From a virus, in the IMG/VR virus record IMGVR_UViG_3300043430_000010, positions 1 through 31,272 of that record: a stretch of DNA of 31,272 nt, one strand, 5' to 3'. The notes under the pieces are model-generated. The model was not told the origin of the DNA. It saw only the letters and a program-made list of their open reading frames with translations, and did not search any database. Positions 2,859-15,278 of the stretch are shown piece after piece; the first letter of the stretch is position 1; each line of letters starts with the position of its first letter. Position numbers and translations under genes: made by a program.

Positions 2859-3596
2859 TTATTTTGATGATTTTAAAAGTTCACGAATTTTTGTTTTTGT
2901 TTGCAATGGAAAATCGGAACCTAAAACCCAATTTGCATAATGCGGATCATCAACAACCGGTTTGTTCACGTTTTTTCCAAATGACCAATAAACAACACCA
3001 TCTTTGATGTATGTTTTGCCGGCATAATCAAAACGTTTTTTTTCATCTTGACATTTTTCATCAATTTCTTTTGGTGTGATTTCCGGATTTTCTTTTGTTT
3101 GCAGCAACAAAATTTCCAATGTTGCACGGACATCATTCAACGCATCGTGGGCGTCTTCCAAATCATTTCCGGTATAACGTTTGTATGTATCGCCAAGTTT
3201 ATGACTATTCAATAAACGTTCGTGTTTTAATACATCAACAAAAATTGGTTCCCACGTTGGAAATTCAATTTTGCATCGGTTGAATTCTTCAATCAACAAC
3301 GGAATGTCAAAGTTGTCGGAATTGTAACCGCCGAAATCACACCCGGCCATATATTTATTCAATGCTTTTGCGATTTGAAAAAACGTTGGTGCATCTTTTA
3401 CCATTTCATCCGTGATCCCGTGAACATCGGACGCTTCTTTTGGAATTTTGATTTGCGGATTAATCAACATTTTTTTTTCTTCTTTGCTGCCGTCAATGTT
3501 TATCTTGATGCAAGCGATTTGACAAATGCGGTCGTTGGCAATTGAAACACCCGTGGTTTCTAAGTCAAAAAATACAATTGGATTTTCGATTTTCAT
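2859..3596 (-). CDS. DEDDh-type 3'-5' exonuclease (DnaQ/RNase T-like)
   Basis: The N-terminal 160 residues carry the three exonuclease motifs: ExoI in VFFDLETTG (D11, E13), ExoII in YNSDNFDIPLL (D97) and ExoIII in AHDALNDVRAT (H150, D155). The histidine in ExoIII places it in the DEDDh class with DNA polymerase III epsilon and RNase T, which remove nucleotides from 3' ends using two metal ions. The C-terminal 80 residues (about 165-245) form an extra domain with a YAGKTY...YWSFGK stretch whose role is unknown. It is the first gene after a terminator and a strong predicted promoter. No polymerase gene is nearby, so it probably acts alone in DNA processing. Confidence 0.92.
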   Translation of the reverse strand: MKIENPIVFFDLETTGVSIANDRICQIACIKINIDGSKEEKKMLINPQIKIPKEASDVHGITDEMVKDAPTFFQIAKALNKYMAGCDFGGYNSDNFDIPLLIEEFNRCKIEFPTWEPIFVDVLKHERLLNSHKLGDTYKRYTGNDLEDAHDALNDVRATLEILLLQTKENPEITPKEIDEKCQDEKKRFDYAGKTYIKDGVVYWSFGKNVNKPVVDDPHYANWVLGSDFPLQTKTKIRELLKSSK

Positions 3597-3631
3597 TATT
3601 TAACTTTTTTGTTATACATTTTTTTATTTGA

Positions 3632-3661
3632 CAAATATACAATTATTTACTTTGTATCAAA
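3632..3661 (-). promoter_or_regulatory. Predicted promoter for the exonuclease to methyltransferase operon
   Basis: On the minus strand the sequence reads TTTG (3661-3658), 18 nt, then TATATTTG (3639-3632), a perfect -33/-7 pair for the Bacteroidota housekeeping sigma factor. An A-rich stretch precedes the -33. It lies between a strong terminator and the exonuclease ATG at 3596. Confidence 0.75.
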
Positions 3662-5536: not shown

Positions 5537-6958
5537 TTATGGTTCTCGTTGATTAATAAATTCAAAAATATTTTGTCCATATAGCGCTTTTATTGCACTT
5601 TCATAAATATAATGCTCTTGATCTTTTAAACTTCTTGAATTTTCTTTTTTACTTAATTCAGAAATATAATACTCACATTGTGATTTTAATTGTTCAATAT
5701 TAATTTCAACCAACATCGGCGGCGGAATAACATCAATTTCATTGTTTGAATAATCATTTACAATTTCTTCATCAAAAACAACCGATTCAATCGCTTTTTC
5801 AAAATCACTTTTATTTTCTTCAATTGGTGCAGCAACTTCATTTTCAACATTTGTTGTTTCTGGTTCTGGTTCTGGTTCCGGTTTTGATTTGATTTCAATT
5901 TGACCTTGAATGTTTTCAATTGTTTTTTCAAATTCTTCATCGTTATCCGACACGATAAATGTTTTTTGATATACGACATCATAAATTTGAAAATTGCCGT
6001 TTTCATCGCATTCCATACCGATTGAAGTTAATTTTTTGGAACGGTCGTTGTATTTTTTTTCTTTTCGCAATTCTTCAAGTTCTTCATCATCTTTTTGTTT
6101 TTGAATTCTTGCGTTTTCTTCATTAACCAATTTCGTTTCTTGTTTTTCAAACAAATCTTTTAATTCTAAAACTTTGAAATCAAAATCATATTGAAATTCT
6201 TCAAAATCAATTTCTTGTTCAACTAAATTATTAACGGTCAATTCAACATTTCGGAATGTTTCAAAAGTCATTTCATAAATTAATTCTTTTGCTTTCAATT
6301 CGATTTGATTGATTTTGTTTTGATGATCTTCTTTGCGTTTGATTTCTTTTTGTTTGTTTTCTTCAATCAACGTTTCTTTTTTGGCTTTGAATTTATCATT
6401 TGTGAAATCAATGACCTGGTCAAACAATAAATCGAATTCTTGAAATGTGCCGCTTCTTTCGGAAATTGTTTTTTGAATTTCAGTATCAACAACATCAATC
6501 GTGTCAAATGTCATTGTTTCAATTTTGTCGCCAAATTCTTTTTCCAATTCCGAAATGTTGTTTTTCAAACCATCAACACGTTCTTTTTCAATATTTGCCA
6601 AACGTTCTTTTTCGGCGGCCAAAATGTCTTCATAACGTTTCACTTCGGCTTGTTGTTTGTCATACGCTTCACGTGTGATTGTCGAAAATTCTTTGAATTT
6701 ATCTTGAATTGATTTTTTGAAACCATTCAAAAATTTTGTCAATGTCGATTCTTGTTTTTCAACATCGGTTGATGCGGTCAATAATGTTGTTCTTGATGCT
6801 TTTGCTTTTTCGTATGTTTCTTTGTCTTTGATTTCAACATACGGGTTCGATTTTACGATTTCAAGTTGTTTTTCTTTCAACCCTTGAATTTCTTTCAGTT
6901 GTTGTGTGTCAATTTTTGAAATTTCCACAATTTCTAATTTTGAATTGTTTTTTGCCAT
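5537..6958 (-). CDS. DUF1351-like coiled-coil phage protein
   Basis: This 473-residue protein is dominated by charged heptad-like helices from about residue 50 to 310. The segment KASRTTLLTASTDVEKQ...LNGFKKSIQDKF...KQQAEVKRYE matches my memory of the phage DUF1351 family, usually encoded beside single-strand annealing or nuclease genes. Near residues 360-370 there is a PEPEPEPE tract, encoded by a tandem TCTGGT repeat around 5859-5884, which separates the coiled coil from an acidic C-terminal part. The protein is probably elongated and cytoplasmic and may act as a recombination accessory factor. It is long for the family, and the C-terminal 100 residues may be a separate domain. Confidence 0.6.
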   Translation of the reverse strand: MAKNNSKLEIVEISKIDTQQLKEIQGLKEKQLEIVKSNPYVEIKDKETYEKAKASRTTLLTASTDVEKQESTLTKFLNGFKKSIQDKFKEFSTITREAYDKQQAEVKRYEDILAAEKERLANIEKERVDGLKNNISELEKEFGDKIETMTFDTIDVVDTEIQKTISERSGTFQEFDLLFDQVIDFTNDKFKAKKETLIEENKQKEIKRKEDHQNKINQIELKAKELIYEMTFETFRNVELTVNNLVEQEIDFEEFQYDFDFKVLELKDLFEKQETKLVNEENARIQKQKDDEELEELRKEKKYNDRSKKLTSIGMECDENGNFQIYDVVYQKTFIVSDNDEEFEKTIENIQGQIEIKSKPEPEPEPETTNVENEVAAPIEENKSDFEKAIESVVFDEEIVNDYSNNEIDVIPPPMLVEINIEQLKSQCEYYISELSKKENSRSLKDQEHYIYESAIKALYGQNIFEFINQREP

Positions 6959-7193: not shown

Positions 7194-7209
7194 GATGCTA
7201 CGAGAGAAC

Positions 7210-7899
7210 TCAAAACAACGACGTTTGAGATTGTTCATTTGTAATTCTTTTGGTTAAAACTGAATAATATTTTTTATCAATTTCGCTTCCTAAAAAATTT
7301 CTTTTTTCTTTTATACAAGCAATTGCAGTTGTACCACTTCCCATAAATGGGTCAAAAATCAAATCGTTTTCTTTACTTGAATTTACAACCAAAGTGCGAA
7401 TAATGTTTAATGGCTTAACAGTTGGGTGTTCAAAATCGCTTTTTGAATTGTTTTGCAAAAAATATTTCTTCTTACTTGCGTAATCGCCACCTAAATAAGC
7501 TCCTTTACCTCTCATAAAAATTATGTATTCAGTATCGCTTAAATATTTATTATTGGTTGTAGGTATTGGATTTAGCTTGTGGTAGCAAAGTATATCTGTA
7601 TTCATATTATTTTCTTTTCCCCAAAGAAGTATTTGTAAAACTTGGTCTTTTGAGCAAAAAAAGTAACAATTAAATATTTTCAAAACTCTTTTACATTCGT
7701 CTAAAACAATATTTTCAAAACCATCACTTAATGATTTAACGCCTTTGTGATAATCTCGTTGTTCAGTCCCAAAACAACCGCCACCGCCACCACTAACAAT
7801 TTCATACGGTGGATCTGCAATTACTAAATCAACAGAATTGTCGGGCAATCTTTTTAAGGTGTTTAAACAATCCTCATTGTATATTTTATTTAATTCCAT
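7210..7899 (-). CDS. Beta-class DNA methyltransferase (DPPY, N6-adenine or N4-cytosine)
   Basis: The catalytic motif DPPYEI (29-32) comes first, and the AdoMet-binding motif FMGSGTT (185-191) comes near the C-terminus, followed by KRNFLGSEIDKKYY. That order defines the beta class, with enzymes such as HinfI-type and CcrM. The recognition region lies between. At 229 residues it is a small member with no C-terminal extension. An unusual run of glycines (SGGGGGCF, about 36-43) follows DPPY. Codon and word use differ from the neighbours, and the gene is bracketed by an inverted repeat and GC-rich hairpins, so it looks recently acquired. No restriction gene is adjacent. Confidence 0.92.
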   Translation of the reverse strand: MELNKIYNEDCLNTLKRLPDNSVDLVIADPPYEIVSGGGGGCFGTEQRDYHKGVKSLSDGFENIVLDECKRVLKIFNCYFFCSKDQVLQILLWGKENNMNTDILCYHKLNPIPTTNNKYLSDTEYIIFMRGKGAYLGGDYASKKKYFLQNNSKSDFEHPTVKPLNIIRTLVVNSSKENDLIFDPFMGSGTTAIACIKEKRNFLGSEIDKKYYSVLTKRITNEQSQTSLF

Positions 7900-8081
7900 T
7901 TATATAAAATTATTAGTAAATAAAAGCACCATCGCACAACAGCCGTTTTGCAAAAGCGGGGTTTCGGTGTTTAATTCAAGTTTTATGCTATTATCAATCA
8001 TTTGTGCTATATTTAAAGTTTAGTGATTTTAATCCCCCGCCTTCGCAAAGCGGGCAGACCGTTTTAAAGTTTTTTACTTCG
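7900..8081. other. Foreign-looking intergenic segment upstream of the methyltransferase
   Basis: About 180 nt without a gene. It holds a hairpin with a TTTTGCAAAA core (7943-7959), a second hairpin with CCCGC/GCGGG arms (8036-8054), and the right arm of the inverted repeat. The local G and C runs stand out against the AT-rich phage gaps. No reading frame longer than a few tens of codons looks coding, and no tRNA cloverleaf is visible. From memory, similar segments occur between genes in flavobacterial chromosomes; this is unverified. Confidence 0.55.
7932..7940. repeat. Right arm of the inverted repeat flanking the methyltransferase gene
   Basis: The 9-mer TCGCACAAC pairs exactly with the arm at 7185-7193. 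It lies 32 nt upstream of the methyltransferase ATG, within the GC-rich foreign-looking segment. Confidence 0.6.
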
Positions 8082-8112
8082 CAAATGTAAATAAAAAAAT
8101 GTATTATAAAAA
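8082..8112 (-). promoter_or_regulatory. Repeated phage promoter, copy A
   Basis: The minus strand carries TACATTTG (8089-8082) as the -7 element and a TTTT at 8112-8109 in the -33 place, 19 nt away. The bases 8081-8105 are identical to promoter copies B (10837-10861) and C (15147-15171). It lies in the gap after the ssDNA-binding protein gene and would drive the methyltransferase and the accessory operon. Confidence 0.7.
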
Positions 8113-8139
8113 CATTTTTTAATTTATTTTAAAAATATT

Positions 8140-8523
8140 TTAAAACGTCAAATCATCGTGTTCTTCTTCTTTTGTCGTTGATTGTGGATTTGTTGTTGTT
8201 TGTTGTTTGTTTTGATATTCATCAACCGCACTTGTTGATTTTGGCGCTTGACCAACTTTTTCCAATTTCCAACCACGCAATGAATTGAAATATTTTTTTT
8301 CGCCTTGCGGATTGATCCATTCACGACCGTTGATGTTGATTGCAATTTTTACAACATCATCAAGTTTGTAATTATTTAATAAATCGCATTTGTCTTGCGT
8401 GAATTCTATCAATATTTTTTGCGGATATTGTTCATCCGTTTCAATTGCAACGTCTCTTTTTTTGAATGATGCCGAAATTTCTTTTACATCATCAATCAAT
8501 ATTAGTTTTCCTATTAAGTCCAT
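8140..8523 (-). CDS. DUF3127-like single-stranded DNA-binding protein
   Basis: The first 90 residues have the OB-fold pattern I recall for DUF3127: MDLIGKLILIDDVKEI, then VAIETDEQYPQKILIEF, a DKCDLLNNYKLDDVVKIAINI strand pair, and YFNSLRGWKLE. A Gln/Thr-rich linker (about 105-118) follows, ending in the acidic tip EEEHDDLTF. That tip mirrors the DDxxPF tail through which bacterial SSB recruits replication and repair proteins, with Thr in place of Pro. It probably coats phage single-stranded DNA. It is the last gene of the operon starting near 10830, just before promoter copy A. Confidence 0.78.
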   Translation of the reverse strand: MDLIGKLILIDDVKEISASFKKRDVAIETDEQYPQKILIEFTQDKCDLLNNYKLDDVVKIAININGREWINPQGEKKYFNSLRGWKLEKVGQAPKSTSAVDEYQNKQQTTTNPQSTTKEEEHDDLTF

Positions 8524-8527
8524 TTTT

Positions 8528-8719
8528 TTAAGTTTCTTTTATTGAACAATATCCAACTTGATACGCTTGATATTTACAACCTGGTTGTTTTTCCATATCA
8601 AGATATTGTTGAAATGTCATTGTTTTTTTCTTTATAATTCCGTTTTGAAATCTGAAAACATCCACCATTGTTTCCGGCGGTGTTTTAACATACAATGTTT
8701 CTTTTTGCTTTTGAGTCAA
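8528..8719 (-). CDS. Short conserved phage protein (about 63 aa, uncertain start)
   Basis: The conserved-looking part is YVKTPPETMVDVFRFQNGIIKKKTMTFQQYLDMEKQPGCKYQAYQVG. The open frame extends upstream to 8833, but that extension lies inside the NinG-like gene in another frame and looks like a shadow. I chose the TTG at 8719, one base after the NinG stop, because it includes the YVKTPPE strand; an ATG at 8668 would give only 46 residues. It has no recognised domain. Confidence 0.55.
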   Translation of the reverse strand: MTQKQKETLYVKTPPETMVDVFRFQNGIIKKKTMTFQQYLDMEKQPGCKYQAYQVGYCSIKET

Positions 8720-8720
8720 T

Positions 8721-9191
8721 TTACTTGCGGCCACCGTGAATTTTTGAAAGTTGATATTGTTTTGATAATTCCGGATTGTTTTCAAGTTCCAAATTATGTT
8801 CCAAACAACACCCGGCAAAATAACGCACATCAATTGTCAAAGGAATATTATTTTCACGTGCCCAATCATCGGCAAAACCAATTCGGCCCATTGTGTGTTC
8901 AATTGTTGTTGAATTGCGATTGCAACCATCAATGAAACAAATTTTGTTTTCTGGTTTTGACAAAAATTCAATTCTTAGAACTGTATATTTTGCATTGATG
9001 ATTTTTTGTTTTTGCGAAATTTTGTTGATTGGTTTTCTTGGCTTATTATTCCAAACAATCGGTTTTTTTTCTTTTGGTTTTTCGCATTTCTTTTGACATT
9101 CAATTGAACAATATTTGTCGGTTGTTTTGAACAATTTGAATTCTTTGCGGCATTCCTGATTTTTACAATTTTTGTGCGTTTTTAGTTTCAT
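8721..9191 (-). CDS. NinG-like HNH recombination protein
   Basis: The N-terminus has a four-cysteine zinc ribbon (C9, C14, C28, C32) and a basic linker KPRKPINKISQKQK. The C-terminal half has CFIDGCN...TIEHTMGRIGFADDWA...RYFAGCCLEHNLELENNPE, which resembles the HNH-like nuclease domain of the lambda NinG (Rap) family. NinG acts with phage recombination systems on branched or single-stranded DNA. The neighbourhood (ssDNA-binding protein, YqaJ-like exonuclease, RusA-like resolvase) supports a recombination role. A hairpin sits directly before its start codon. Confidence 0.75.
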   Translation of the reverse strand: MKLKTHKNCKNQECRKEFKLFKTTDKYCSIECQKKCEKPKEKKPIVWNNKPRKPINKISQKQKIINAKYTVLRIEFLSKPENKICFIDGCNRNSTTIEHTMGRIGFADDWARENNIPLTIDVRYFAGCCLEHNLELENNPELSKQYQLSKIHGGRK

Positions 9192-9198
9192 AATATTT

Positions 9199-9214
9199 GG
9201 GCGGTTTCCCGCCC
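9199..9214 (-). promoter_or_regulatory. GC-rich hairpin with a GAAA loop before the NinG-like gene
   Basis: On the minus strand the RNA would form a 6-bp GGGCGG/CCGCCC stem capped by GAAA, a GNRA tetraloop. It ends 7 nt before the ATG at 9191. No T-run follows, so it is not a typical terminator. It could affect translation of the gene or stabilise an RNA end. Confidence 0.55.
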
Positions 9215-9222
9215 GTTTTAAA

Positions 9223-9843
9223 TTATTTCAACTTTGTTTCATCTTTTTCCGTTCCTGGTTCTTTGAACAAATCCGGATTTTCTTTTTTCTTCAATTCGGT
9301 TTCGATGTCAAGTTGCAATTTTTTTGATTGAAAACGATATGCGTAAACTTCTTTTTTGATTTTTTCGCAAATTTCTTGAACTTCATTTTCGTAACCTAAA
9401 ACATCTTTTCCGAATGTGATTTTGGAAACGGCCATTCCGATTGATCCACCTTTTGGAAGTTTCAATGAACCGGTAACCATTACGCCGTAAGTTTCGCCAT
9501 CGCCTAAAAATGTAATCCCGTTTACATTGCAACGTGAAGTCGCTTCTTTGTGTCCGTCCATTGCCATTTTTAAAACATCCAAATCTTTTTTCGTGTGTTC
9601 ACGTGAAAAATCCCATCCGTCTAAAATTCCGATTCTTTGGGCCATATATGGGGCCAATTCATCAAGTGATGCTTGCAAGTCCGGATGTGGTTGAACTTCG
9701 CCGATTTTTGTCAATTGCCCGGCATCATTTCCGGATTCGTGATGCGTAACGTCCGCACCATCTTTCGTGATTTTAACTTTGATTAAATCGAAATGTTGAT
9801 ATTCCAATTGTCTCAATTTTTGTTCTTCGTGTGATTTTGCCAT
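9223..9843 (-). CDS. Conserved phage protein of unknown function (206 aa)
   Basis: The middle of the protein (about 100-165) has regular strands (CNVNGITFLGDGETYGVMVTGSLKLPKG, then KITFGKDVLGYE) that look like a beta-rich fold. The C-terminus (about 160-206) is a charged helix rich in Lys and Glu. I recall relatives in Bacteroidota phages beside recombination genes, but no tested function. It is encoded between the Cys-rich protein and the NinG-like gene. No catalytic or membrane motif is visible. Confidence 0.68.
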   Translation of the reverse strand: MAKSHEEQKLRQLEYQHFDLIKVKITKDGADVTHHESGNDAGQLTKIGEVQPHPDLQASLDELAPYMAQRIGILDGWDFSREHTKKDLDVLKMAMDGHKEATSRCNVNGITFLGDGETYGVMVTGSLKLPKGGSIGMAVSKITFGKDVLGYENEVQEICEKIKKEVYAYRFQSKKLQLDIETELKKKENPDLFKEPGTEKDETKLK

Positions 9844-9868
9844 TTTTAGCGATTTTTAAATTAAACAA

Positions 9869-10153
9869 TTATTTATTTTTATGATGATTTATGCAATCAT
9901 TTTTGTTTTCAAATATTAATTCGTGGCCGGTCAATTTTGTTTCAACATTGAGTGTTTTTGCTAATGATACAAATGAACTTTCATTTCCTTTGATAATCAT
10001 AAAACCGGCACATTGTAATTTTTTGTTTTTATGACAAACAAACGAATGTTGATTTAATATTTCAATCATTCGATTTTCGCCCAACCAACCTTTCAAACTA
10101 TCTTTTCTAAACGGACAATCTTTGCACGGTTTTTTACAATTTGGCAAATTCAT
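9869..10153 (-). CDS. Small Cys-rich protein, DUF6283-like (94 aa)
   Basis: The N-terminal CKKPCKDCPFRKDSLKGWLG, a central FVCHKNKKLQCAGFM and a final ENKNDCINHHKNK give six cysteines plus histidines. I associate this pattern with a small phage family (DUF6283, recalled and unverified). The spacing suggests a zinc or iron-sulphur site. Its ATG overlaps the stop of the winged-helix-like gene (ATGA). A nucleic-acid-binding role is a guess from its neighbours. Confidence 0.65.
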   Translation of the reverse strand: MNLPNCKKPCKDCPFRKDSLKGWLGENRMIEILNQHSFVCHKNKKLQCAGFMIIKGNESSFVSLAKTLNVETKLTGHELIFENKNDCINHHKNK

Positions 10154-10527
10154 TTTGATTGTGCTTTTATCGACATATCAAGTTGATATTGCATTGCATC
10201 ACGCACGTTGATTATTGCATTAATTCTTTGATCTAATGATGTGATGAATTTTTTGCATTCACTTGGTGTCGTTGCAATATAATATCCTTTTCCGGTCGCA
10301 ATCAAATTATAAATTAAATTATTAATTCTAATGTGATTTATTATTTTTCGCAATCGTGCCGGATCAATTTTATAGTTTGCACCTTTCATCAGCTTTATAA
10401 TTTCCGTTGATGAAATTTGATTTGATTCGCCACGTTTGGTGTTGAATCCTTTTATAATCGCCGGAAGAAGTGTTTTTTCTTCATAATCGGTCAATTCGTG
10501 TGTTTGTTCTTCAAATCCGTCAATCAT
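10150..10527 (-). CDS. Winged-helix-like phage protein (125 aa)
   Basis: The protein contains LTDYEEKTLLPAIIKGFNTKRGESNQISSTEIIKLM, then YKIDPARLRKIINHIRINNLIYNLIATGKGYYIATT. This series of helices followed by a strand pair looks like a winged helix, with RLRKIINHIR as recognition helix. I chose the ATG at 10527, one base after the upstream stop. The longer frame from 10632 runs inside the previous gene and its first 35 residues look like a shadow. A regulator or replication accessory is likely, but the target is unknown. Confidence 0.7.
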   Translation of the reverse strand: MIDGFEEQTHELTDYEEKTLLPAIIKGFNTKRGESNQISSTEIIKLMKGANYKIDPARLRKIINHIRINNLIYNLIATGKGYYIATTPSECKKFITSLDQRINAIINVRDAMQYQLDMSIKAQSK

Positions 10528-10528
10528 A

Positions 10529-10816
10529 TCAAAAATCAATATAGTTAAACAATTCATCTTTTGTGAAATTGAATTTTGCATTTTCACCGTTATTTCTGAA
10601 TAAAAATATTTCGTGAATTTCAAAATTTGCAATTACAATTTTGTGATTTTCGATTTTCATATTAACACATAATTCAACTGTTAAATGATAAACGTTTTCG
10701 TTATCTTCTTTGAAATAAGAATTCAAATTTACGAACTGAGTTTGATTGTTTTCAAAACTCACTTTATCTGGTAGGAATTCCAGATTTTCAAGAATTTTTG
10801 ATTTTGTATTTTCCAC
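10529..10816 (-). CDS. Hypothetical protein with a GTG start (95 aa)
   Basis: The frame is open from 10909, but the upstream part encodes promoter copy B and overlaps the RusA-like gene, so a start there is unlikely. The GTG at 10816 lies about 15 nt after the expected transcription start, in the same TTTTATCGTG context used by the small gene behind promoter copy C. The protein is acidic with probable strands (VYHLTVELCVNMKIENHKIVIANFEIHEIFLF). I do not recognise it. It is the first gene of the second early operon. Confidence 0.62.
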   Translation of the reverse strand: MENTKSKILENLEFLPDKVSFENNQTQFVNLNSYFKEDNENVYHLTVELCVNMKIENHKIVIANFEIHEIFLFRNNGENAKFNFTKDELFNYIDF

Positions 10817-10837
10817 GATAAAAAGTTTTTGTTTTGG

Positions 10838-10870
10838 CAAATGTAAATAAAAAAATGTATTTACGATAAA
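10838..10870 (-). promoter_or_regulatory. Repeated phage promoter, copy B
   Basis: The -7 element TACATTTG is at 10845-10838. The bases 10837-10861 are identical to copies A and C. The -33 is poor: the best candidate is TTTA at 10870-10867 with a 21-nt spacer. It starts just downstream of the RusA-like stop, inside the upstream extension of the next reading frame, and supports the GTG start at 10816. Confidence 0.65.
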
Positions 10871-10871
10871 T

Positions 10872-11411
10872 TTAAAATAAAGATTGTTGTGTTTGCTCCA
10901 GGCGTCCAATAATTTTCAATTCAATTGCGGGATAACCTTTTTTATATTTCATATTGATTTCATCAACAAATCGAACCGTGTCATCTTTTAAAACATTGAT
11001 TGTTTTAATTTCATTGTCATATTTTTCGGCATTGATAATTTGTTTTGATGATGGTGTTTTCATTAAGTCAAGCAAAATTTTAGTCCAAAAATAAACTTTA
11101 TTGTCAAGATCAAAATTGTCGGTCGGGAAATGATATGTGATTTCGATTTTGCATTTTTCAATTTTTGGAATTTCTTGAATGTGTTGCATCATCCATTCTT
11201 TAGCGAAATTGACAACTTTTGATTTTATAGCCCAATGTGTACCATCATAAAAAATATTTGCGGTCAAATAATTAACATCTTTTTCAATCAATTTTCCTTT
11301 TGAATCAAGTTTGATTTTTTTGTTAATCTTTTCATATTTAGTCGGCGGATCACGGAACATTTCGTGAAATAAAATATCATCCATTTGATTTGAATTTAAA
11401 ATTTTTGTCAT
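10872..11411 (-). CDS. RusA-like Holliday junction resolvase
   Basis: The C-terminal half carries FDLDNKVYFWTKILLDLM (D101, D103) and later VLKDDTVRFVDEI (D143, D144), matching the RusA pattern in which D-x-D-N and a downstream Asp bind the catalytic metal. RusA enzymes cut four-way junctions during phage recombination. The N-terminal 50 residues are extra and not recognised. The start at 11411 overlaps the helicase-loader gene by 35 nt; an ATG at 11384 would cut this to 8 nt and is a real alternative. The gene closes the operon that starts at promoter copy C. The assignment rests on motif spacing only. Confidence 0.68.
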   Translation of the reverse strand: MTKILNSNQMDDILFHEMFRDPPTKYEKINKKIKLDSKGKLIEKDVNYLTANIFYDGTHWAIKSKVVNFAKEWMMQHIQEIPKIEKCKIEITYHFPTDNFDLDNKVYFWTKILLDLMKTPSSKQIINAEKYDNEIKTINVLKDDTVRFVDEINMKYKKGYPAIELKIIGRLEQTQQSLF

Positions 11412-12417
11412 TTCTTAATTCAAGAAACTTTCTTTTTGTGATGACATTTTGTGCGATGTTCATCGTTGAATCACGTGTGATTTCTTTATATTTTTCTTCA
11501 CGTTTGTTTTCACGCACAACCGGGATGCAACTTTTCATCAAGACTGAAATTGATTCACGAATTTGTTTTTTTTCCAATGAACGTGCCGCATCAAACATCG
11601 CATCATCAATTTCATCAAAATCGGTTGTTTTTAAATATTCGTTTTCCAACATAAATTTTTTCACAAATGACCAAGCGACTTCGCCCATATTTTGCAAATA
11701 ATCATCGGATTCTATCAACAAATCATTCATAAATGCAACAACATCAATTTTTTCTTCGACTTTTGGTTTTTCAAGTTTTTTCCAATTTTCTTGAATTTCT
11801 TGTTGTGTCAATTTTCGTGTTGATTTAATTTGTCGGAATGAACCAGTTTCAAGAAAATCGAAATGTTCAAAATATACCATTTGCATAAATCTATCAGCAA
11901 CACGGCCGTCATAATTTTTTGCGATTTCTTCAATTGTCAAATTCGTTGTTCCAAACGTGCGAAATCCTTTCGACACCCACCATTCATAACGTTTTAATAA
12001 TACGAATCGAATGACATTCATTTTGTTGTTGTAATGCGAAAAAAATTTGTCATCGCCTTCATCGCCTATGTCATCAATAAATAAATTTTTTACTTTTATG
12101 AATTCCAAAAGTTCTGCTTCGCCTTTTTCTTTGAAAACATTGACCAATTCTTTTGCACTTGTTTTTTTGAAAATATATTGGTTTCTTATTCTGAAATGTC
12201 GATGATGAACAACATCGAAAAAAAATGATTTACCGACACCATATTTTTTGTTGAATGCAATTATCCCACGATTATAATCAACTTCGGGATCATTATTGAA
12301 ATTATAAATCACATCCAAACAAAATGTAAATGTTTTTTCAATTGTTGGCGATGTAATGAATTTTTTAACAAAAAACATTTCAGCTTCATTAATAAATCTT
12401 TTATACGAATCTTTCAT
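11377..12417 (-). CDS. DnaC-like AAA+ helicase loader
   Basis: The protein has a Walker A motif in NKKYGVGKS (about 56-64), a Walker B in NLFIDDIGDE (111-120), a sensor-1-like FGTTNLT (155-161), and GRVADRF (171-177) with a likely arginine finger. This set matches DnaC/DnaI-type ATPases that load the replicative helicase. The C-terminal 150 residues are helical and charged and may contact the helicase or initiator. At 346 residues it is longer than DnaC. It follows the initiator gene by 1 nt, the usual pairing in phages that recruit the host helicase. Confidence 0.85.
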   Translation of the reverse strand: MKDSYKRFINEAEMFFVKKFITSPTIEKTFTFCLDVIYNFNNDPEVDYNRGIIAFNKKYGVGKSFFFDVVHHRHFRIRNQYIFKKTSAKELVNVFKEKGEAELLEFIKVKNLFIDDIGDEGDDKFFSHYNNKMNVIRFVLLKRYEWWVSKGFRTFGTTNLTIEEIAKNYDGRVADRFMQMVYFEHFDFLETGSFRQIKSTRKLTQQEIQENWKKLEKPKVEEKIDVVAFMNDLLIESDDYLQNMGEVAWSFVKKFMLENEYLKTTDFDEIDDAMFDAARSLEKKQIRESISVLMKSCIPVVRENKREEKYKEITRDSTMNIAQNVITKRKFLELRNDKNFKFKSNG

Positions 12418-12418
12418 T

Positions 12419-13213
12419 TTATTTCAAATTTGGTTCATCGGACGGTGCAAATACAAAATTATTTGATCCGGTTGTTAATGTTGAATTTTGAATTATATCG
12501 GTTGATTCAACCAAATATGAATCCATTTTATTTCCAAACAATGTTTCTGGCCGGATGTATTTTTTCATTTTTTCATCATTTGACCATTTTATTATTGCAG
12601 CATCAATGACTTTTTTAAAATCATCAATTTTGAATCCTTCTTTTATTCTGGCTTTTATTGGTGTTAAATTTCCGTTTGTCAATTTAAAACCTTGGCCACC
12701 TCTTTTTTCATTCAAGTATTTAATCACATCATCTGGAATCGTTGGTAAATCAATTTCTTCAAACAATGTCGGTTCCGATTCTTGGAACAATGATATTTCT
12801 TTATTATCATTTTTATTATTATTTGATTTATTATTATTTGTTTGAACTATTTCTTTTTCTTGTTTTGAATTTGTTTGAATCCCAGTATTTAAAAATATTA
12901 AAATCTTGTTTTCAACAACTTTGAAATGTAGTTTTGCGGGAATTCCTTTCAACTTAGTTTCAACATATCCGACATCATTCAATATTTTTAAACATCGTTT
13001 TTGTGCGTGATAATTCAATGATGTTGATGATTCTATGTTTTCCGATGTGTTATAAAAATAACCGTCATCATCAAGTTCATTTCTTGTTTCAAAATAAGAA
13101 TGTTTGTCAATTAAATCGGCCAACAAAACGGCTGGTTCTATTCCGATATTTTTTGCAATTTCTTTGTTGACTATCCAAAACGCACTTTGTCCAAGTATTT
13201 TTTGTAAAATCAT
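12419..13213 (-). CDS. Replication initiator with winged-helix and phage C-terminal domain
   Basis: The first 105 residues form a winged-helix-like DNA-binding domain (FWIVNKEIAKNIGIEPAVLLADL, then YHAQKRCLKILNDVGYVET). An Asn/Lys-rich linker follows (NNNKSNNNKNDNK, encoded by an AT microsatellite near 12796-12840). The C-terminus (about 170-245, YLNEKRGGQGF ... TPIKARIKEGF ... IRPETLFGNKMDSYL) fits the conserved phage C-terminal domain (Phg_2220_C) of DnaD-like initiators. I use the ATG at 13213 rather than the TTG one codon earlier. It should bind the phage origin and recruit the DnaC-like loader encoded next. Confidence 0.86.
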   Translation of the reverse strand: MILQKILGQSAFWIVNKEIAKNIGIEPAVLLADLIDKHSYFETRNELDDDGYFYNTSENIESSTSLNYHAQKRCLKILNDVGYVETKLKGIPAKLHFKVVENKILIFLNTGIQTNSKQEKEIVQTNNNKSNNNKNDNKEISLFQESEPTLFEEIDLPTIPDDVIKYLNEKRGGQGFKLTNGNLTPIKARIKEGFKIDDFKKVIDAAIIKWSNDEKMKKYIRPETLFGNKMDSYLVESTDIIQNSTLTTGSNNFVFAPSDEPNLK

Positions 13214-13216
13214 CAA

Positions 13217-13987
13217 TTATTTATTTATAAGTTCAATCGCTAATTTAACACGATTTTCAAGAAACATTTTGTCTTCAACCGGAACTTCAAAACGAATGAC
13301 ATTGATGTTTTGAATTCCAGATTCTTTATAAATATATGGCAACTCATCTTCTTTTGCACGACCAACTAACCAAAACGGTTCCGCAAGTTGACTGTTATAC
13401 AATTTGATTTGTTCCAATTCTTCATAATATGGCATAAACACAATCAATTCGGCATAACGTGCTTTTAATATTGATGCGTTACTCACTAATTGCCAATAGT
13501 ATTTTTCGCCCTCTTTTGATTGTTTTCGGATTGATTGTATTATTTCATTTCCGTTGATTGTTTTCTTCTTAGAAACGTTCAAACCGTCAAAATCATACAA
13601 ATCTTTAACCAAGTTGTAAAATGCTTTTCGTGTCAATGGACATTTTATGTCCGTGATTGTATCAACTTTTTTGTCAACTTCAATTTTTCCGTCCGGCGTT
13701 CCAACCCATTCCGGAAATTTCGGGTGTTCAAATGTTACATCGGATTGAAATTGATATTTAAAACCCAATGAATCGTGAACAATTTTTTCGCAAAGTTTGC
13801 CCCACGAAAACGCCATTACTTCAACACTGTTTTCAAGTCGTTGTTTAAAAAATCTTTCCATTCTGCATTCTTCAACGTATGTGAAAAATGGTGCGCCTGG
13901 TTCGCCTTTGCTTCTTCCGTTTGATGTCAATGCGACAATATCGCTTGATGTGCATCTTCCAATTCTAATGTTTGATAAATTTCCCAC
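13217..13987 (-). CDS. YqaJ-like phage exonuclease (PD-(D/E)XK)
   Basis: The catalytic core shows GTPDGKIEV (96-104) and TDIKCP (112-117), the D...D-x-K pattern of YqaJ/lambda-exonuclease-type nucleases, with a preceding helix WGKLCEKIVHDSLG supplying the conserved Glu. Later YWQLVSNASIL fits the Q-x-x helix of the fold. These enzymes resect double-strand ends 5' to 3' for strand annealing. The start is a GTG at 13987; the next ATG would cut off about 42 residues. The upstream neighbour may be its single-strand-binding partner. At 256 residues the length is normal. Confidence 0.85.
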   Translation of the reverse strand: MGNLSNIRIGRCTSSDIVALTSNGRSKGEPGAPFFTYVEECRMERFFKQRLENSVEVMAFSWGKLCEKIVHDSLGFKYQFQSDVTFEHPKFPEWVGTPDGKIEVDKKVDTITDIKCPLTRKAFYNLVKDLYDFDGLNVSKKKTINGNEIIQSIRKQSKEGEKYYWQLVSNASILKARYAELIVFMPYYEELEQIKLYNSQLAEPFWLVGRAKEDELPYIYKESGIQNINVIRFEVPVEDKMFLENRVKLAIELINK

Positions 13988-14000
13988 GAGTTTAATGTTT

Positions 14001-14576
14001 TTATAAGTTTCTTAAAAATTTTAATGTTTTATCATACGATGTGATTTCTTTGTTTTCGATGATTCTTTTGATGTGTTCAAAATCATCGGCCGGAATCAAT
14101 GTTTCTTTTTCCGAAAACAATTTGTCAAGTTCTTTTTCTTTGGCTTCATCATCTTGAATGATTAACGGTTTCACACTCCAAATATCCGATTTAAAAGCAT
14201 TAGTTGAATTCTTTTGTTTTCCCAAATATTCAATTCTTAACGGTGTGCCGGCAACTATTTTTCCGGAATTCATAGCACTTTGTAATGATGCAACTAATCG
14301 TTTTGAACCATTTCGGAATGTTTTCAATTCGCCGGTTTCTTTTTGTTCTAAAAATATGATGCACGGAAGTTCGATTGTTTCGCCAGTTTGTTCATCGGTA
14401 TAACTTGAACTTTTAATGTCTTGGAAGAAACACAATTTTGTTTCGCCCTCTTTTTCCGGCGTCCAATATTCGCTGGTTAAATCAATTGGCAAAATCTTTG
14501 CACCTTGCAAATTCGGCAATTCTTCAAGTAAATCATAAGATTGAATTTCCGATGATGTTTTTTTTACATTTTCCAT
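14001..14576 (-). CDS. Conserved phage protein upstream of the exonuclease, possible ssDNA binder
   Basis: The central region (about 30-140: IDLTSEYWTPEKEGETKLCFFQDI, IELPCIIFLEQ, LKTFRNGSKRLVASLQ, GTPLRIEYLGKQKN, SDIWSVKPLII) has strand-rich segments suggesting an OB-like barrel, a fold common in ssDNA-binding proteins. I recall homologues in Bacteroidota phages without a named function. The C-terminus is helical. Its position directly before a YqaJ-like exonuclease is where a strand-annealing or ssDNA-binding partner usually lies. That role is an inference from position. Confidence 0.68.
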   Translation of the reverse strand: MENVKKTSSEIQSYDLLEELPNLQGAKILPIDLTSEYWTPEKEGETKLCFFQDIKSSSYTDEQTGETIELPCIIFLEQKETGELKTFRNGSKRLVASLQSAMNSGKIVAGTPLRIEYLGKQKNSTNAFKSDIWSVKPLIIQDDEAKEKELDKLFSEKETLIPADDFEHIKRIIENKEITSYDKTLKFLRNL

Positions 14577-14577
14577 T

Positions 14578-14697
14578 TTAATAATTTTTTAAGATTGTTT
14601 TTATAATTCCGTGGCCAAAATATAAAACGGCCAACACGATCCACACGATGCAAAAAATATCAAATTTTGAATATTTTTTTGATTCATTATTTTTCAT
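14578..14697 (-). CDS. Small single-helix membrane peptide (39 aa)
   Basis: A frame from the ATG at 14697 to a TAA at 14578 encodes 39 residues: a polar N-terminus (MKNNESKKYSKFD), one hydrophobic helix (IFCIVWIVLAVLYFGHGII) and a basic tail (KTILKNY). It overlaps the HTH gene by 11 nt and ends 1 nt before the next start, filling a gap that would otherwise be empty in a packed operon. No family is recognised. Confidence 0.6.
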   Translation of the reverse strand: MKNNESKKYSKFDIFCIVWIVLAVLYFGHGIIKTILKNY

Positions 14698-14941
14698 TTG
14701 AAACAAATTCGTTCAATTTACAATTTCCGATTTCCATCAACATTTGAAGTCTTTGAACAACATTTGGAACTTTGCCGCTTTTCCAATCCGTGAACAATTG
14801 CGGCGTAACGCCCAATTTTTCCGCAAGCAATTTTCTTGACATTTGCGGATGAACCGTTGGATTTGCTTTGTTCCATTTTTCAATGATAACATCAACATCA
14901 ATAATTGTTTTCACTTCTTTTTTTTCTTTAATTTTCGACAT
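14687..14941 (-). CDS. Cro/C1-type helix-turn-helix regulator (84 aa)
   Basis: Residues about 45-80 (MSRKLLAEKLGVTPQLFTDWKSGKVPNVVQRLQMLMEI) form the five-helix HTH of the Cro/C1 family, with QLFTDWKSG as recognition helix and turn. The N-terminal 30 residues are Lys/Glu-rich. I use the ATG at 14941 because the open extension to 14986 overlaps the small upstream gene. It is the second gene of the first early operon, so it is well placed to control the repeated promoters. No divergent repressor gene is visible. Confidence 0.8.
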   Translation of the reverse strand: MSKIKEKKEVKTIIDVDVIIEKWNKANPTVHPQMSRKLLAEKLGVTPQLFTDWKSGKVPNVVQRLQMLMEIGNCKLNEFVSNEK

Positions 14942-14963
14942 AATTTTTGATTTTAAATAATTA

Positions 14964-15125
14964 TTAATTGTTTTTACTATAGTCAATTTCTAAACTTGAC
15001 AATGGTTTGTCAAAATTTGGGTCTTTGCGATCCACAAATTTTGTTTCTTTTTTCATTGATGAAATTTCAACTATTTTTGGAAATCCATCGGCTCTTGGCG
15101 GGTTTAATTCTGCAATTGTTTTCAC
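14964..15125 (-). CDS. Small early protein with a GTG start (53 aa)
   Basis: A frame of 53 codons runs from the GTG at 15125 to a TAA at 14964. The protein begins with KTIAELNPPRADGFPKIVE after the start residue, then SSMKKETKFVDRKDPNF. It is polar and Pro/Lys-rich, with no membrane segment. It is the first gene behind promoter copy C, and its start context TTTTATCGTG matches that of the GTG gene behind copy B. An internal ATG at 15056 would leave only 30 residues. I do not recognise the family. Confidence 0.6.
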   Translation of the reverse strand: MKTIAELNPPRADGFPKIVEISSMKKETKFVDRKDPNFDKPLSSLEIDYSKNN

Positions 15126-15147
15126 GATAAAATGTTTTTTGTTTCTG

Positions 15148-15178
15148 CAAATGTAAATAAAAAAATGTATTACGCAAA
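15148..15178 (-). promoter_or_regulatory. Repeated phage promoter, copy C
   Basis: On the minus strand, TTTG (15178-15175) is followed after 19 nt by TACATTTG (15155-15148), matching the Bacteroidota consensus. The bases 15147-15171 are identical to copies A and B. It starts the replication operon just after the late-operon terminator. An ATAAAAAAATGT inverted repeat spans the upstream half of the spacer and the -33 region. Confidence 0.75.
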
Positions 15179-15201: not shown

Positions 15202-15230
15202 AAAAAAAAACGCCATTCTTTCAAATGACG
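15202..15230 (-). terminator. Intrinsic terminator at the end of the late operon
   Basis: A 7-bp stem (15211-15217 with 15224-15230, one G-U pair) encloses a 6-nt loop and is followed on the minus strand by nine T residues (15210-15202). It lies 49 nt after the spanin-like gene and just before promoter copy C, separating late from early transcription. Confidence 0.78.
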
Positions 15231-15278
15231 GTTAAAAAACTTTTTTATAGACTCGTGAAAATCTTTTGCAAATATAAA

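Follow-up and report, generated by a model that had tools for sequence, protein, structure and literature searches.

The Repeated Core and Its Promoters

The window, meaning the full stretch of DNA analysed here, is a whole IMG/VR virus record (IMGVR_UViG_3300043430_000010; 31,272 bases, 32% GC) whose larger genes lie on the minus strand. The subject of this analysis is a 25-base block that recurs exactly at three promoters of this record, together with a small helix-turn-helix (HTH) protein that is the candidate reader of the block. The middle 7.5 kb of the window shows 98.9% identity to phages of Flavobacterium psychrophilum, e.g., FpV9 and Fpv5, and is matched at 95-99% by 29 INPHARED records; this fish-pathogenic Flavobacterium is the host of window-like phages. 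Fpv5 (L014, 42,696 bp) served as the complete reference genome. In the open-access literature we found no paper on early-gene operators in Bacteroidota phages, and little on early-gene timing.

The block, GCAAATGTAAATAAAAAAATGTATT, lies at 8081-8105, 10837-10861 and 15147-15171; no further site occurs in the window with up to 3 mismatches, and the 25-mer was found 0 times in 100 dinucleotide shuffles. Read on the minus strand it is AATACATTTTTTTATT-TACATTTG-C, i.e., 16 bases followed by a Bacteroidota -7 box and one further base, and all three copies carry the -7 element TAnnTTTG as TACATTTG. In these points, and in the heptamer AAATGTA that occurs twice in the core, 14 nt apart, the preliminary description of the sequence was accurate; it did not list a fourth copy, which is inverted and lies over the start region of a promoter that we call D. 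The features are as follows.

15153-15170, minus strand: operator-like site of promoter C (ATACAT-TTTTTT-ATTTAC, -27 to -10)
15148-15155, minus strand: -7 box TACATTTG of promoter C, with a -33 TTTG at 15175-15178, 19 nt apart
10843-10860, minus strand: operator-like site of promoter B, after the RusA gene
10838-10845, minus strand: -7 box TACATTTG of promoter B, with no TTG at -33
8087-8104, minus strand: operator-like site of promoter A, after the single-strand DNA-binding protein (SSB) gene
8082-8089, minus strand: -7 box TACATTTG of promoter A, with no TTG at -33
3614-3629, minus strand: inverted 16-nt operator copy AAATAAAAAAATGTAT, over the start region of promoter D
3632-3639: -7 box TATATTTG of promoter D

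Promoter C alone has the -33 TTTG, which falls outside the repeat; the same position reads TTTT in A and TATC in B. A TAnnTTTG box at -12 to -5 is described for primary-sigma promoters in the start-site map of F. psychrophilum and in F. johnsoniae (PMC9723704; PMC6847099). The phage promoters share this box with those of the two bacteria as described there, and differ from them by fixed spacer letters that go beyond general AT-richness.

The complete Fpv5 genome holds exactly three copies of the spacer, the base after the -7 box being T instead of C at B, and the stretches read of FPSV-S2, FPSV-D19, FPSV-S3 and Fpv6 carry all three copies with the spacer unchanged. Among viral contigs, the exact 23-mer core had one match, a near-identical fragment. 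In FCL-2, P12024S, tant8-1, 1/32 and L006-L013, no match to the core was found with fewer than 5 mismatches, and the few at 5 or 6 lacked TAnnTTTG. No repeated promoter of comparable identity was found in FCL-2, P12024S, L006-L010 or L013 either, where the best pairs had 4-10 mismatches in 25. As a separate observation, Fpv5 has at 36600-36665, after the terminase and endonuclease genes, a promoter with three operator-like stretches (3 mismatches each) spaced by ~21-23 bp.

Spacers Are Shared Within Phages and Differ Between Them

Profile searches identified relatives (L020-L026 and L041-L043) with 44-51% identity in the DnaC-like ATPase; G001, G002, G003, G005 and G006 below denote L020, L021, L022, L024 and L026, respectively, and L017 is phage 1/32. 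Five weaker ATPase matches (L027 and L044-L047; 25-33% identity) showed no comparable promoter set, and a search of genome contigs with an ATPase-alignment profile returned 68 stretches, none of them a relative. Promoters stand at the same three places in the relatives: C upstream of the leader gene and the HTH gene, B after RusA and A after SSB. Eight phages have promoters at all three places, and L023, L041 and G006 contribute one or two promoters each because their contigs are short.

Within phages, spacers (-28 to -13) agree at 12.2 of 16 positions on average (39 pairs, counting those of phage 1/32 and three D promoters), compared with 8.45 of 16 when one locus is compared across phages (111 pairs). 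In the eight phages with A, B and C, the summed identity was 320, and label permutations averaged 212 with a maximum of 290, so that none of 20,000 reached the observed value. G001 and G002 each have AATACATTTTTAAATG at three promoters, G003 has GAAATAAAAAAAGAT at its three, and G005 and tant8-1 share AATAAAATAAAA between C and B. Fpv5, G001, G002 and G003 contain exactly three sites each within 1 mismatch. The more distant phage 1/32 (L017 5876, 8636, 41653 and 33954) has a set of its own, with three promoters that carry TTG at -33 and a variant fourth.

The preliminary description would have counted a lack of spacer conservation in relatives against its proposal. Taken literally, this test fails outside the ACAT class of operators, where the arrangement is conserved and the letters are not.

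A Dyad at a Fixed Position

An 18-bp dyad centred at -18.5 spans -27 to -10, taking in the spacer and the three bases that open the -7 box. At this centre, 4.56 of 6 outer-arm pairs match as a phage average, which is the best of the centres scanned (the next reaches 3.49); in 5,000 shuffles that kept the within-phage sharing the maximum was 3.42, and none attained the observed score. The dyad was first noticed by eye in the same sequences in which it was tested, and the scan over centres served as a guard. At least 5 of 6 pairs are present in 19 of 34 promoters, with letters that change from phage to phage: ATACAT-N6-ATGTAT in G001, G002 and L041, GTACAT-N6-TTGTAC in L023, ATAAAA-N6-TTTTAT in tant8-1 and at C of G005, and [AG]TAATA-N6-TATTA[TC] in L042 (A, B and C) and L043 (C and D). 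The A and B sites of L041 are exact reverse complements of each other.

Two other symmetries were considered and rejected. The preliminary description had taken an inverted repeat, AAAAAAATGT/ACATTTTTTT, said to be common to A and C, for the symmetry of an operator. The repeat exists in C, but A has ACATTTTTTA and B has no repeat; its left arm belongs to an upstream element common to phages with other spacers, and the axis of the dyad lies elsewhere. This upstream element, ATAAATnAAAAAATGTTT, is unchanged in relatives whose spacer differs and therefore looks like a general upstream or -33 region. It resembles an inverted operator at 3 mismatches, but as it does not change with the spacer, a second upstream operator was discarded.

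The HTH Protein of the C Unit

All nine distinct phages with a C region, the window phage included, encode an HTH protein in the C unit. In the window this gene is:

14687-14941, minus strand: 84-aa Cro/C1-like HTH protein encoded in the promoter C transcription unit, a putative reader of the site

The 84 codons occupy 14690-14941, and the length agrees with that given in the preliminary description. Its AlphaFold model (pLDDT 87) places helices 36-43 and 47-54 in an HTH arrangement, and the orthologues of tant8-1 (24.3 bits) and G003 (28.7 bits) score above the cut-off of the Cro/C1 HTH model. As a lone query, the G002 HTH protein matched only itself. In G003, one reading frame (L022 6475-6933) encodes the HTH protein as a fusion of two tandem Cro/C1-like domains, which fits the asymmetric site of that phage; the fit carries limited weight, since the site of the window is poor as well.

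Across nine phages, operator similarity follows similarity of the recognition helix (Mantel r 0.59; partial r on ATPase divergence 0.51, p 0.001), and the recognition-helix window ranks first of 70 windows of the HTH protein. The motif Q[VL]F[ST]DWK is present in 5/5 phages of the ACAT class, to which the window and G002 sites belong and the tant8-1 site does not, and in 0/6 others; recognition-helix identity is 0.72 within the class and 0.43 to others, and the rest of the protein gives 0.51 and 0.37. The D residue of the class had been noted before viral contigs were scanned with the operator alone (RTACATN6WTGTAYATTTG). The scan matched 108 stretches, and 80 loci from among them were listed and inspected. 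An HTH protein was present at 4 of the 80: G001 and G002, already known, and two new contigs, L127 and L059, where it lies ~360-390 nt downstream of the operator and carries QVFSDWK in both. A one-residue code at the equivalent of 434 Gln33, a position that follows 434 numbering, was tried and rejected: L042 and L043 share a half-site and have K and Q there, and G006 and tant8-1 share a half-site and have V and E.

A Probable Operator for the Phage's Own Regulator

What is observed is a site at a fixed position, its dyad across relatives, phage-specific letters common to the promoters of each phage, and an HTH gene in the C unit. The explanation we consider probable is that a small Cro/C1-like HTH protein encoded by the phage itself uses the repeated block as its operator. 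The block lies at -27 to -10 of three, and with D probably four, host-sigma-type promoters that would drive consecutive early and replication blocks. The preliminary description had proposed an operator over the three promoters and named the HTH protein as a candidate to read it, and the shared spacers within phages, the fixed dyad, the reverse copies and the association between helix and operator favour that proposal.

According to this explanation, a dimer of the HTH protein would bind the site. Bound there, it would lie over the spacer and the TA with which the -7 box begins and should thereby keep RNA polymerase (RNAP) away; the HTH protein is thus most likely a repressor. Made from promoter C, it would also repress its own gene, and early genes would fire first and then be silenced jointly. 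Which way the regulation runs is the least secure part of the explanation, and, less probably, the HTH protein may instead act as an activator at the spacer site. The regulon would comprise the replication block (replication initiation protein, DnaC-like ATPase and RusA), the SSB block, the block after A and, via D, an exonuclease-domain gene at 2859-3596 that is a candidate target. The genes behind promoters C, B and A are:

14964-15125, minus strand: 53-aa leader gene with a GTG start, first gene after promoter C
10872-14576, minus strand: replication block after promoter C, with phrog_14584 (unknown), phrog_4763 (weak exonuclease match), replication initiation protein, DnaC-like ATPase and RusA
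8140-10819, minus strand: gene block after promoter B, the last gene encoding SSB
7210-7899, minus strand: DNA methyltransferase, first gene after promoter A

Several results weigh against this explanation. The window's own site is a poor dyad (4/6 pairs), its left half ATACAT facing a poorer right half ATTTAC; the G003 site has 2-3 of 6 pairs, and the three copies of phage 1/32 are not dyads (2/6). Sharing is also incomplete, as the promoter A spacer of tant8-1 and G005 differs from C and B (8-9 of 16), L043 B and C agree at only 7/16, and sharing in L042 and L043 is weaker. The window protein falls below the cut-off of Pfam HTH_26 (16.6 bits vs. 22), comparison of its model with the PDB lists 434 Cro, SinR and HigA weakly (Z at most 3.5), and Foldseek against the PDB gave no match at E 0.001. 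Regarding specificity, one window among 173 of the ATPase equals the helix in partial r, the whole HTH protein tested against the operator given the ATPase yields p 0.08, and no simple one-residue code links the protein to the half-site. The rest of the protein is also more alike within the ACAT class, so shared ancestry contributes and is not fully removed. Finally, most other pattern loci among the 80 examined show no sign of the system, and phage 1/32 has a promoter set with no detectable relative of the window HTH protein; its gp50, HTH-like by eye, had no profile match.

Alternative Explanations

The alternative that survives best is a real operator read by a different regulator of phage or host origin, which we regard as unlikely. 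The pattern in phage 1/32, which lacks a window-type HTH protein, speaks for it, as does the fact that 11 sequences underlie the recognition-helix association. However, the HTH gene is in the C unit of every relative examined, and the two phages found by the operator alone carry an HTH protein with the expected signature.

A second alternative is that copying of promoter cassettes, or recombination that made the sites uniform, accounts for the spacer identity, which would then reflect descent and not a binding site. It finds support in likeness among copies that runs past the 25 bases into the leader (B TTTTTATCGTGGAAAA and C TTTTATCGTGAAAA), in the copies of phage 1/32, which differ by at most one base over 38 nt, and in the annotation of a RecT-like annealing protein in the relative tant8-1. 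However, positions -28 to -5 show high identity within phages, the values at -31 to -29 fall to 0.42, 0.29 and 0.12, and identity is again low immediately past -5. The bases at -31 to -29, least alike within a phage, thus diverge between conserved flanks, and copying of whole promoters does not explain the block. Nor would copying account for a dyad at one position with different letters in different phages, for the exact reverse-complement site in L041 and the inverted copy at D, or for the association of operator and recognition helix; we find this alternative improbable.

We attach a similarly low probability to the spacer being a promoter element for strength, read by RNAP, by a phage factor redirecting RNAP, or by an activator. 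The lack of a -33 TTG at A and B would suit such a role, and AT-rich motifs at -18 and -28 are described in F. johnsoniae as more evident than the -33 element, which is weak genome-wide (PMC6847099). Against it stands P0, another promoter of the same phages (see below), whose spacer has 6.2 of 16 positions in common with those of A, B and C in its own phage, compared with 13.8 of 16 among A, B and C (21 pairs each, 7 phages); the shared spacer is thus not a phage-wide effect of sigma factor or composition. In addition, the exact letters of an element for the host enzyme would not be expected to vary from phage to phage, and reverse-orientation sites do not fit it. Chance similarity of AT-rich promoters, for which the 32% GC of the genome and the AT-richness of the spacers might be invoked, has a negligible probability given the permutations and is refuted for the window by the shuffles.

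Relation to Known Systems

The proposed operator resembles the lambdoid Cro/CI operators (lambda, 434 and P22) in that a small Cro/C1-type HTH gene lies inside the unit it would control and the operators overlap promoters; the operators of 434 are likewise dyads, with 4-bp half-sites 6 bp apart. Unlike in the lambdoid phages, the sites here are single and dispersed at three or four promoters kilobases apart, the promoters are of the Bacteroidota type, and no divergent switch was seen. An integrase, again unlike in the lambdoid phages, is absent among the 58 annotated features of Fpv5, many of which are hypothetical.

One regulator with many dispersed operators in one genome is also a trait of phage P1 C1 and of mycobacteriophages L5 and L1. 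The repressors of these phages maintain lysogeny, whereas the sites of the window phage fall exactly in the -33/-7 spacer and are mostly dyads. Dispersed operators of mycobacteriophage L1 are treated in PMC1934351. The early promoters of GIL01 are similar in that, as described in PMC6182141, a phage-encoded regulator acts on a few phage promoters, two of them for replication genes; this Bacillus phage differs in that its regulator, according to the same source, is LexA-like and activates lytic genes.

If correct, the explanation would supply a concrete regulator, sites and regulon for the early genes of a Bacteroidota phage, which one protein and three 18-bp DNAs would suffice to test. Since operator and recognition helix are particular to each related phage and the layout is otherwise conserved, these phages form a natural data set for the joint change of a small HTH protein and its dispersed sites.

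A Putative Small RNA Upstream of Promoter C

Upstream of promoter C, the window contains two further features:

15269-15276, minus strand: -7 box TATATTTG of promoter P0, its spacer unlike A/B/C (7/16)
15202-15265, minus strand: putative small RNA ending just before promoter C, with a hairpin (UUUUCACGA loop, 15249-15264) and an intrinsic terminator (15202-15231)

P0, a hairpin with a UUUUCCAC-type loop and the terminator (window 15202-15276, minus strand) occur in 12/12 records with a C region (window, L014, L019, L020, L021, L022, L024, L026, L042, L043, L127 and L059), and P0 sits ~105-140 nt upstream of the -7 box of C in the 12 records. The stem varies and stays paired in most (AGAU/AUCU, AGG/CCU and UGUUA/UAACA); the loop contains UUCCAC in all except the window (UUUUCAC) and G006 (UUCCCAU). 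Rfam gave no match on the window.

The loop is complementary to UCGUGGAAAA, a GUG-start context in early leaders. This start context, ATCGTGGAAAAT, with GTG as the likely start codon, is present in leaders after A, B and C, for example at 10807-10818 and 15117-15127 (minus strand) in the window, at 6686, 11795 and 15317 in L042, and at 6637, 11776 and 16423 in L043. GTGG?AAA occurs in 13 of 27 leaders (1.3 expected), including A, B and C of L042 and L043, A, B and, with one G fewer, C of Fpv5, and B of tant8-1 and G005; the C leaders of L127 and L059 carry it as well. The box was not found in the leaders of G001 and G002 or in the A and C leaders of tant8-1 and G005, and in G003 no leader has it within 70 nt; the idea of a small RNA and its targets fails in all of these cases.

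As a hypothesis, the loop could pair with early start codons. A tentative extension, to which we give a modest, clearly minority chance, is a two-layer early control from one locus, in which the HTH protein made from promoter C would bind phage-specific operators and a separate small RNA from P0 would act, through its antisense loop UUUUCCACGA, on the GUG-start region of early messages. In this picture the operator would diverge together with the recognition helix, the RNA loop would be nearly fixed, and the fused tandem HTH protein of G003 would read an asymmetric site.

The stretch after promoter A differs between the window and Fpv5. Fpv5 has no methyltransferase between promoter A and the next gene; the window, at 7196-8060, has gained a DNA methyltransferase gene relative to Fpv5, and promoter A is followed directly by a long leader of higher GC content. 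This region holds a CCCCGCTTTTGCAAAACGGCTGTTGTGCG-like sequence that resembles the ends of mobile cassettes.

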